A DNA stretch of 64,000 bases from Chlorobiaceae bacterium. Its GTDB lineage: Bacteria > Bacteroidota > Chlorobiia > Chlorobiales > Chlorobiaceae. Made by a program: the position numbers and the translations under genes. The stretch covers positions 151,929-215,928 of the forward strand of contig JAAXWO010000001.1 in NCBI GenBank assembly GCA_013334965.1, written 5' to 3'. Each line of letters starts with the position of its first letter. Positions within the stretch are counted from its first letter, which is position 1. Of the stretch, positions 48,684 to 51,785 are shown in pieces. Below the pieces are notes generated by a model. That model was given only the letters and a program-made list of their open reading frames with translations. It ran no database searches and had not been told where the DNA came from.

Positions 48684-49583
48684 ATGAGGCAATTGAAAAT
48701 AAGCAAGCAGATTACCAACAGGGAGAGTCTCTCCCTGGATCGTTACCTTCAGGAGATCGGAAAATACGAGCTGCTGACGGCTGACGATGAGGTGAAGCTT
48801 ACCATGGCGATCAAGGAAGGCTATGACATGCCTGTTGATACGCCTGAATATAAACGCGCCAAAAGAGCCCTCGACAAGTTGATCAAGGGAAACCTGAGAT
48901 TTGTGGTTTCTGTAGCAAAACAGTACCAGAATCAGGGCCTGACCCTCGGTGACCTTATCAACGAAGGCAACCTCGGCCTGATCAAGGCTGCGAAGCGTTT
49001 CGATGAAACCCGTGGATTCAAGTTCATCTCCTATGCCGTATGGTGGATCCGTCAGTCGATCCTTCAGGCGCTTGCAGAGCAGTCGAGGATCGTGCGTCTG
49101 CCGCTGAACAGGGTAGGCACCCTGAACAAGATCAGCAAGGCCTACAGCCAGCTGGAGCAGGAGTACGAGCGTGATCCAAACACCAAGGAGCTCGCCAACC
49201 TGCTTGACATGGATTCTCAGGATGTGGCCGACACCCTCAAGATTGCCGGACGGCATGTGTCGGTTGACGCTCCTTTCGCACAGGGCGACGACAACCGCCT
49301 GCTCGACGTTCTCCAGAACGACGGGCATATGCCTGACCACGGCCTGAACCGCGACTCGCTGACCCTCGAGGTCGAGCGTTCGCTCTCGGTGCTTGCCCCC
49401 AGGGAAGCCGACGTCATCCGCTCATATTTCGGCATCGGCATGGACAATCCGCTGACCCTCGAAGAGATCGGCGAAAAGTTCAAACTGACCCGCGAGCGTG
49501 TCCGCCAGATCAAGGAGAAGGCCATCCGCCGCCTCCGCCAGTCGGCTTACAACAAGGTGCTCAAGGAGTACATCGGAAGCTGA
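48684..49583 (+). CDS. rpoD: Primary sigma factor (RpoD/SigA type, short)
   Basis: Sigma-70 of 299 residues, the short type found in Bacteroidetes/Chlorobi without a long region 1.1. Region 1.2: [20 protein letters not shown]. Region 2: [59 protein letters not shown]. Region 3 follows. Region 4: [29 protein letters not shown]. Ribosome-binding site GGGGAG lies 8-9 bp before the ATG. The 3' end and terminator are partly duplicated at 51461-51568, around the radical SAM genes. Confidence 0.95.
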
Positions 49584-49641
49584 CCTTTCAGCGTGGACAA
49601 ACAATTCAAAAGCCGGCAGCAGTATCGCCGGTTTTTTTGTT
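49536..49641 (+). repeat. rpoD 3' end and terminator, left direct repeat copy
   Basis: From CGCCAGTCGG near the rpoD C-terminus through the stop codon and terminator stem. It recurs at 51461-51568 (offset 1925, plus two inserted bases after the stop), with only about a dozen mismatches and sharp outer edges. The copies bracket the Cys-repeat peptide and radical SAM genes. Confidence 0.92.
49611..49638 (+). terminator. rpoD intrinsic terminator
   Basis: GCCGGC-AGCAGTAT-CGCCGG stem followed by seven T, 28 bp after the rpoD stop codon. Confidence 0.88.
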
Positions 49642-49822: not shown

Positions 49823-50104
49823 ATGAAAAAATCGGTCAAAGGCATTCTGGCGTCGATTGGCGTTTCAGCACTGATCGCGGGAGGATCACTTCCGCTGATG
49901 GGAGCGGACAGACCTGAAACCCCCCAGGTCAAGGAGGGCAAGGCCGGGAAAAAATGTGCAGGAATGAAGAAGGCTGAACCGACCGCGAACGTCAAAGCCT
50001 CCAAAAAAAGCACGGCGGTGGTGAAAGATAATGTTACTGGCAAAAAATGTGCAGGAATGAAGCCTGATGCCAAGGTGAAAGCCGGCGCGGAGACAGCCAA
50101 ATAA
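49823..50104 (+). CDS. Putative RiPP precursor peptide with GKKCAGMK repeats
   Basis: A 93-residue peptide with AGAGG ribosome-binding site 7-8 bp before the ATG. Residues 1-28 look like a Sec-type signal (MKKSVKGILASIGVSALIAG, then a small-residue segment ending MGA). The mature part is Lys/Ala-rich and contains two exact copies of GKKCAGMK, at residues 42-49 and 73-80, giving the only two cysteines (45 and 76). The linkers between copies are low-complexity. No match to a known domain is apparent to me. The next gene is a radical SAM/SPASM protein 38 bp downstream, so the peptide is the likely substrate. Cys and surrounding Gly/Met would be plausible crosslink sites. This is inferred from architecture, not demonstrated. 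Confidence 0.75.
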   Translation: MKKSVKGILASIGVSALIAGGSLPLMGADRPETPQVKEGKAGKKCAGMKKAEPTANVKASKKSTAVVKDNVTGKKCAGMKPDAKVKAGAETAK

Positions 50105-50142
50105 TGGTTTTCATTCCATTCGGTACAGGGTGCTGAAAGCTG

Positions 50143-51453
50143 ATGGAGAGTCGCAGAGGTGGAAACAGGTACCGGCTTGCCGATTCGCTCCGCATGGAGT
50201 CCCGTGGAGACGGGATTCACCTGACATGGCAGGAGCCTGTCGGCGGGAGGATTCGGCAGGCCATGGCGGACATGGATGACCTGCTTGGCCTGAAAATCGT
50301 GACCGGGAACCTGGACCTGAAGTCGCTTGCCGATACCCACGACCTTCCGTTGAGCCGCTTTTACCGGCTTCTCTCCTATCTCGATCGCAAGGGGATTCTC
50401 AAAGCCCCGGCAACGTTGCTGCGCCGTGATCCGGAACTGTTTGGCCGCGACCTGGGGGATGAGCTGTTCACACTTGCCCATTTCGGGTTGCAGTGGCATA
50501 TCACCAACGCCTGTGACCTGCATTGCCGGCACTGCTATGACCGGAGCCAACGCTCTCCGATGACCGAAGCCCAGGCGCTTCGTGCCCTTGACCAGTTCCA
50601 GCACTTCTGCCATGAACACTGGGTGGTCGGCCATATCGCGTTCACCGGCGGCAACCCGTTTCTTTATCCGGGTTTTTTTGACCTTTACCGGGAAGCCGTA
50701 AACCGCGGGTTCGAGGTCGAGATTCTCGGCAACCCTGTCTCCGGCGACCAACTTGAGAAGCTCTGCTCGATAAGGCCACCCGGGCAGTTTCAGGTAAGCC
50801 TGGAGGGGCGACGATCCTGCAATGACCGTATCCGTGGCGAGGGCTCCTTTGACAAGGTCATGGCATTCCTCGATCTCCTGAAGTCATACGACATCCCTTC
50901 CGGGGTCATGTTGACATTGCACGAGGAGAATTACCGCGAGGTGTTGCCGCTTGTCCGGTTGCTTGAAGGTCGAACCGATGCTTTCAACTTTACCCGCCTC
51001 TCGCAAACCGGAGAGGGTGCCGCCCTCAGGCAGATCCCTCCCGAACAGTATAAAGGGTTCCTTGATCGCTACATTGCCTGTGCGGCCTCCAGTCATATCG
51101 CCGCCTGCAAGGAAAGCCTCATCAATCTCGCTCTCTGGGAGCGTGGCGAGAAAACGACGCCCGGATGTACCGGAACCGGCTGCGGAATTGCCTTTGATGG
51201 TGTGATTCTCCTTCCTGACGGCGAGGTTCACGGTTGCCGCAAGCTGCCGTCACGAATGGGCAATCTGTGGCAGCAGACGCTGGAGGAAATCTATTTTTCA
51301 CAGGCCAGTGCAGCACTCCGGCGTGGCATGCGGGCATGTGACGGATGCCCTGTCCGTGCTGTCTGCGGCGGCTGTATCGCTGCTTCAACGGTATCTCCGT
51401 CCGGGTTTGAATATACGGTAGACCCATGCTGCTGGCGCTTATGGGGCAAATAG
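50143..51453 (+). CDS. Radical SAM/SPASM protein, putative peptide maturase
   Basis: A 436-residue protein. Residues about 1-100 resemble a winged-helix/peptide-recognition region (KIVTGNLDLKSLADTHDLPL, SRFYRLLSYLDRKGIL). The radical SAM cluster motif CDLHCRHC has Cys124, Cys128 and Cys131 (CxxxCxxC), followed by HIAFTGGNPFLYPGFF. The C-terminal SPASM region supplies extra cluster ligands: Cys342, Cys347, Cys365, then CDGCPVRAVCGGC (399, 402, 408, 411) and a terminal CC pair (429-430). This layout is that of RiPP maturases. The closest described type I can compare is the SPASM maturase of small Cys-repeat peptides (called ACGX system in public models), from memory. The substrate is most likely the upstream peptide. 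Confidence 0.85.
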   Translation: MESRRGGNRYRLADSLRMESRGDGIHLTWQEPVGGRIRQAMADMDDLLGLKIVTGNLDLKSLADTHDLPLSRFYRLLSYLDRKGILKAPATLLRRDPELFGRDLGDELFTLAHFGLQWHITNACDLHCRHCYDRSQRSPMTEAQALRALDQFQHFCHEHWVVGHIAFTGGNPFLYPGFFDLYREAVNRGFEVEILGNPVSGDQLEKLCSIRPPGQFQVSLEGRRSCNDRIRGEGSFDKVMAFLDLLKSYDIPSGVMLTLHEENYREVLPLVRLLEGRTDAFNFTRLSQTGEGAALRQIPPEQYKGFLDRYIACAASSHIAACKESLINLALWERGEKTTPGCTGTGCGIAFDGVILLPDGEVHGCRKLPSRMGNLWQQTLEEIYFSQASAALRRGMRACDGCPVRAVCGGCIAASTVSPSGFEYTVDPCCWRLWGK

Positions 51454-51460
51454 GGGGGCA

Positions 51461-51508
51461 CGCCAGTCGGCCTGCAACAAGGTGCTCAAGGAGTACATCG
51501 GAAGCTGA
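51461..51508 (+). pseudogene. rpoD C-terminal fragment
   Basis: Encodes [15 protein letters not shown] and stop in the same frame as the rpoD end ([15 protein letters not shown]), 8 bp after the radical SAM stop. It has no start or upstream sigma sequence, so it is a passive fragment left by a duplication. Confidence 0.85.
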
Positions 51509-51568
51509 CCTTTCAGCGGGAACATACTATTCAAAAAAGCCGGCAGCAGTATCGCCGGATTATTTGTT
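51461..51568 (+). repeat. rpoD 3' end and terminator, right direct repeat copy
   Basis: Second copy of 49536-49641. The terminator stem GCCGGC...GCCGG is intact at 51539-51558, but its T-run is broken (ATTATTTG). A run of eight T and then twelve G follows (51567-51586). Confidence 0.9.
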
Positions 51569-51599: not shown

Positions 51600-51785
51600 G
51601 CTTAAAAAGAGATGGGAGCGGGGCTGTTTCATGCATCTTCGAGGTTCATTCCGTGCATCAAGTCCATACCGTCCATGATCTGCGTAACGCGTCACGTGTT
51701 ACGAGTCACGTGTTACGAGTCACGTGTTACGAGTCACGAGTCACGAGTCACGAGTAGTCCCCATTCCCCAGTCACGCGTCACGCC
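51600..51785. repeat. Second heptamer and nonamer repeat locus
   Basis: GTCC occurs every nine bases in GTCCATACCGTCCATG (51661-51676, the nonamer on the opposite strand). From about 51688 to 51745 the heptamer GTCAC-N2 recurs, with a further run at 51769-51784. The array overlaps the 3' end of the SAM hydrolase gene and writes its last codons (…GTTRDS). Same two repeat types as at 43932-44167. Confidence 0.85.

Follow-up and report, generated by a model that had tools for sequence, protein, structure and literature searches.

The window, a 64,000-nucleotide stretch of Chlorobiaceae DNA, encodes a two-gene cassette that we identify, from its sequence, as a selenium-free and diverged member of the SbtA/SbtM family, in which a short precursor peptide is followed by a radical SAM/SPASM maturase. 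A sequence-only reading of this DNA had described a Cys-repeat peptide next to a radical SAM protein and taken the two for a RiPP precursor and its SPASM maturase. The description was recovered in full, with both open reading frames, the repeats, the CxxxCxxC motif and the 38 bp that separate the stop codon of the peptide from the start of the maturase, and the interpretation gained a family, since the enzyme matches SbtM and the two genes are paired across genomes. The cassette adds a Sec-free branch to the thio(seleno)oxazole RiPPs, with modification sites that resemble the ones in copper-buffering peptides of an unrelated enzyme.

The maturase belongs to the SbtM family

The 436-residue maturase (50143..51453, + strand) matches the SbtM profile TIGR04082 with 487.5 bits (E 4.8e-146; cut-off 350), together with the Pfam Radical_SAM and SPASM domains. 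Its second-best family is ACGX (TIGR04340), with 157.4 bits against a cut-off of 400, and the sactipeptide and ranthipeptide maturase families score below 60 bits. The ACGX system, which had been proposed as the point of comparison, is therefore a distant second, and the best family is one that modifies peptides, not one acting on a non-peptide substrate. The CxxxCxxC motif of the radical SAM cluster (C124/C128/C131; 50512..50535, + strand) is invariant in all nine aligned homologues, and the SPASM region (51166..51432, + strand) contains eight Cys, C342, C347, C365, C399, C402, C408, C411 and C430, that are invariant in the nine-member alignment. Consistent with these assignments, an AlphaFold2 model of the maturase (pLDDT 77) resembles SuiB, BlsE, SkfB and CteB.

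The match to TIGR04082 begins at profile position 104, and the N-terminal ~100 positions, which are present in many SbtMs, are absent. The same extension of about 100 residues is also lacking in the other complete chlorobial SbtMs and in seven more distant SbtMs; because these seven pass the cut-off, the extension is not needed for SbtM membership. A homology of the extension of other SbtMs to DUF2063/HvfC, suspected by eye, received no support from Pfam. Modelled alone, residues 1-96 of the maturase (pLDDT 83.5) fold into three strands followed by three helices, and the best Foldseek matches of this model are of the RRE/PqqD type (TbiB1, MibB, PqqD), with probabilities of 0.85-0.97 and E values of only ~0.05-0.14. 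We predict an RRE-like peptide-binding domain at residues about 11-90 (50173..50412, + strand), and the model makes it likely, though not proven, that the N-terminus of the enzyme is its leader-binding domain.

The precursor peptide combines a signal-like leader with two Cys repeats

The SbtA-type precursor peptide (49823..50104, + strand) comprises 93 residues and carries two GKKCAGMK repeats, the first at residues 42-49 (49946..49969, + strand) and the second at residues 73-80 (50039..50062, + strand). Cys45 and Cys76, one in each repeat, are the sole Cys of the peptide. The repeats are exact in protein and share 23 of 24 bases in DNA, which argues for a duplication within the peptide gene. 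The gene pair is more than a chance occurrence, because orthologues of both genes adjoin each other in three more members of the genus, whose peptides contain two to three repeats that fit G[KR][KR]C[AG]G[MIL]K exactly or nearly.

The leader, or signal-like segment (residues 1-28; 49823..49906, + strand), has a basic n-region with a net charge of +3 and a hydrophobic stretch at residues about 8-26, with a 12-residue hydropathy maximum of 2.39 from residue 8. The Sec-like signal proposed earlier thus stands for its basic start and hydrophobic segment, but its cleavage region, with LMGA before the cut and D after it, is weak. Residues 1-24 match the SbtA profile TIGR04081 with 23.4 bits, below its cut-off of 30.5 bits. 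All four chlorobial peptides miss this cut-off (14.3-23.4 bits), as do two of the three non-chlorobial SbtAs tested. Such a leader had been considered unusual for a SPASM-modified peptide. However, a hydrophobic segment after a short, mostly basic n-region is found in all 43 distinct SbtA peptides examined, indicating that the signal-like leader is a trait of the SbtA family. A loose pattern also detected a lipobox-like Cys in 18 of 39 non-chlorobial SbtA peptides, two of these cases being doubtful.

The chlorobial modification sites are Cys-only and preceded by Lys or Arg

In the four Chlorobaculum-type peptides, all nine sites are Cys, none is Sec, and each is preceded by Lys or Arg. In other SbtAs, by contrast, 74 of the 121 sites hold Sec, and Gly or Ser precedes the site in 111 of the 121 cases and Lys in only two; the contrast in preceding residue gives a Fisher p of 2.5e-12, with the limit that sites within one peptide or clade are not independent. 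The frame that follows the site, [CU][GSA]GxK, is kept in the chlorobial peptides, as CAGMK twice in the window and as CGGLK and CGGIK in congeners, in agreement with the earlier claim that the repeats mark the modification sites. The absence of Sec is explained by the genome of the window, which is 99.68% complete and holds no SelB match over the cut-off, the matches that do appear looking like ordinary translation GTPases. A selenocysteine reading of the chlorobial peptide was rejected, there being no in-frame TGA inside it and no SelB over the cut-off. A Cys-only, two-gene pair that can be expressed without selenium machinery would also be a convenient test system.

Since Lys or Arg before the Cys is nearly never found elsewhere, this branch has altered its site preference and could make a different product. 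It could be that the maturase makes thioethers of the sactipeptide or ranthipeptide type, linking each Cys to a nearby residue, for instance Met or Lys, with the loss of two hydrogens per Cys; the unusual preceding residue would fit this reading, as would the shared radical SAM/SPASM fold and the presence of the thioether formers SkfB and CteB among the best structural matches. However, the score of 487 bits for TIGR04082 lies far over those of ACGX and of the sactipeptide and ranthipeptide families, and the repeat retains the [CU]xGxK frame of the SbtA family, so that thioether formation appears improbable. In the part of the review PMC11002830 that covers Lewis et al. 2021, Cys and Sec peptides treated with SbtM lost four hydrogens, and NMR identified the Cys product as a thiooxazole; the thioether crosslink and the 2 Da per repeat put forward by the sequence-only reading are thus not supported for an enzyme of this family. 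We therefore retain the thiooxazole chemistry of SbtM as the preferred reading.

The cassette lies in a variable genomic spot

Upstream of the cassette lies a sigma factor gene, and on its other side a convergent gene for a SAM-hydroxide adenosyltransferase. A direct repeat of ~106 bp, present at only these two places in the genome, brackets the cassette. Its left copy (49536..49641, + strand) comprises the 3' end of the sigma-factor gene and a terminator stem, and its right copy (51461..51568, + strand), just past the maturase, comprises a partial sigma gene 3' end with the terminator, at 90.7% identity over 108 bp. This arrangement has the look of an insertion in which the end of the sigma gene was carried along or duplicated. 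A 14-bp tandem-like repeat (GTTACGAGTCACGT) is found downstream of the cassette, at 51684-51760, and a scan for sigma-70 promoters, in itself uninformative, returned no match.

Most relatives without the cassette have a few hundred bases between the end of the sigma gene and the convergent gene for the SAM-hydroxide adenosyltransferase; in some, this interval holds 1-2 kb of other DNA. Three of the cassette-less congeners (G013, G011 and G010; loci L050, L051 and L052) carry, between these two genes, related secreted-looking open reading frames of low complexity, rich in Arg and Asp. In a relative with the cassette (G007), partial copies of the sigma gene again act as brackets, and the cassette lies beyond a 4.6-kb gene, located between it and the sigma gene, for an autotransporter of 1528 residues (L048:2028-6611). 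In three others (G009, G012 and G017), the gene after the cassette encodes a large protein, related among the three. The protein of G009 (L003:5233-8220; relatives in L060 of G012 and L069 of G017), encoded 3' of the SbtAM cassette, is about 1000 residues long and combines a NACHT domain with a C-terminal FGE-sulfatase domain. Its N-terminal part matches the PADLOC candidate PDC-S60, and it may be a defence gene in a variable spot. We conclude that the interval between the sigma and SAM-hydroxide adenosyltransferase genes is variable.

The pair is conserved as a unit, and SbtM is under purifying selection

An SbtA-type peptide is found near 34 of 40 SbtM loci of other genomes and at all four readable chlorobial loci, as detected by a leader profile. 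This profile was built from family peptides that a pattern had initially picked up at some of these very loci, among them two chlorobial ones, and the matches there are therefore not independent. The expected co-occurrence of maturase and peptide thus holds throughout the readable loci of the genus. The earlier remark that no dedicated transporter or protease adjoins the pair was also correct, and a stand-alone pair proved to be the normal arrangement across 31 homologous loci. Among 81 proteins flanking SbtM at these 31 loci, no shared family emerged beyond MFS_1 in four, and no conserved metal-related gene was found. Because no shared neighbour points to a function, the two genes probably act by themselves and rely on general export.

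In the window's phylum, five of 395 sampled genomes carry SbtM, and all five belong to one genus (5/86 genomes of the family). An equal sample taken around G092, the source of the Desulfobacterales record L016, from the phylum of that genome gave SbtM in 38 of 395. The rarity of SbtM in the window's phylum and its confinement to one genus suggest that the cassette was gained horizontally. The chlorobial SbtMs, which are 40-49% identical to other SbtMs, form a single monophyletic clade in the tree (support 100/100), on a long branch of 1.88 changes per column. No SbtM was detected on sequenced plasmids at 1e-40, and a literature search returned no work on the SbtA/SbtM system in Chlorobaculum.

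A gene pair that is rare in its phylum, bracketed by partial sigma-gene copies and provided with a weak signal-cleavage region might have been acquired horizontally, have lost its function and be in decay. Against this, the dN/dS of SbtM is 0.09-0.12 relative to three congeners, indicating purifying selection, and that of SbtA is 0.24-0.36 relative to two more distant congeners (the closest pair gives 0.75, with too few changes to judge). Moreover, the repeats, the leader and all cluster Cys are retained. Decay is thus very improbable.

Proposed chemistry and fate of the peptide

In the proposed mechanism, the maturase would bind the leader of the precursor, probably through its predicted N-terminal RRE-like domain, and a 5'-deoxyadenosyl radical would attack each repeat Cys at its beta carbon, removing a hydrogen. 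Abstraction at this carbon is reportedly part of the order of steps in the SbtM work of Lewis et al. 2021. The carbonyl oxygen of the preceding residue would close onto the Cys beta carbon, and further oxidation would complete the thiooxazoles of Lys44-Cys45 and Lys75-Cys76, so that four hydrogens in all are lost per Cys. By extension of the family chemistry to Lys-Cys sites, formation of a thiooxazole at the repeat Cys is quite probable, although the changed residue before the Cys, the long branch and low identity of the chlorobial SbtMs and the low SbtA scores of their peptides count against it. The modified peptide would then leave through Sec by means of its own signal-like leader, in which case a dedicated transporter is not needed; export by this route seems somewhat likely. 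On reaching the periplasm, the peptide may use its thiooxazole thiolates as ligands for a soft metal, for instance copper(I). Metal buffering by the chlorobial peptide is plausible, but metal binding by the modified form, proposed by analogy, is itself rather doubtful.

We know of no biological role for SbtA peptides. A thiooxazole peptide made by the same chemistry could instead serve a redox, signalling or antagonistic role unrelated to metals, as a strain-variable accessory trait. The patchy presence of the cassette (5/86 genomes of the family) points in this direction, as do the differing accessory DNA that its spot holds in relatives, including the autotransporter and the NACHT protein, and the lack of conserved metal genes nearby. 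However, the pair comes without an immunity gene or a dedicated export gene, and the thiooxazole peptides made by MNIO enzymes, in which a 5-thiooxazole is formed at the Lys-Cys of EGKCG repeats, are exported by Sec and bind copper (PMC12668002, PMC12452194). We regard such a non-metal role as a serious possibility, though short of an even chance. A bolder proposal is that anaerobic green sulfur bacteria use a radical SAM enzyme to produce a Lys-thiooxazole peptide that leaves through Sec and buffers copper(I). Such a peptide would be a convergent counterpart of the captophorins, which MNIO enzymes make, and would have arisen within the SbtA/SbtM family by replacement of Sec with Cys and of the preceding small residue with Lys or Arg. 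Taken as a whole, this proposal is speculative and unlikely to hold in every part.

Comparison with known systems

Among known peptide maturases, those of sactipeptides and ranthipeptides (SkfB, CteB, PapB) share the radical SAM and SPASM domains with the chlorobial enzyme, and CteB and SkfB are among its structural or sequence matches, but the sequence scores of these families are weak and another chemistry is expected of them. The ACGX system (TIGR04340) differs both in its maturase family, for which the chlorobial enzyme stays far under the cut-off, and in its repeat, GKKCAGMK not being of the ACGX form. The closest system is the SbtA/SbtM thio(seleno)oxazole system (TIGR04081/TIGR04082; Lewis et al. 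2021, doi 10.1021/acs.biochem.1c00469), which has in common with the chlorobial pair a maturase over the cut-off, an SbtA-type leader, the [CU]xGxK repeat and the two-gene layout. The chlorobial pair departs from it in the absence of Sec, in the Lys or Arg before every Cys and in a peptide under the SbtA cut-off; its maturase also lacks profile positions 1-103, as do some other SbtMs.

The captophorins, bufferins and oxazolin, which are made by an MNIO with PME1 on EGKCG repeats, resemble the chlorobial peptide in their Sec-type signal, their Lys-Cys sites and the thiooxazole expected at each Cys. Unlike the chlorobial pair, in which the unrelated radical SAM enzyme has no DUF2063 partner, they depend on a multinuclear iron oxidase (MNIO, DUF692) that acts with a DUF2063 protein. 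Copper binding, a property of captophorins and bufferins, would be a putative trait of the chlorobial peptide. The convergence in sites and export between the two systems is suggestive and, if the chemistry proposed here is true, two enzyme classes, radical SAM enzymes in anaerobes and iron oxidases elsewhere, would have arrived independently at one and the same ring on an exported peptide.
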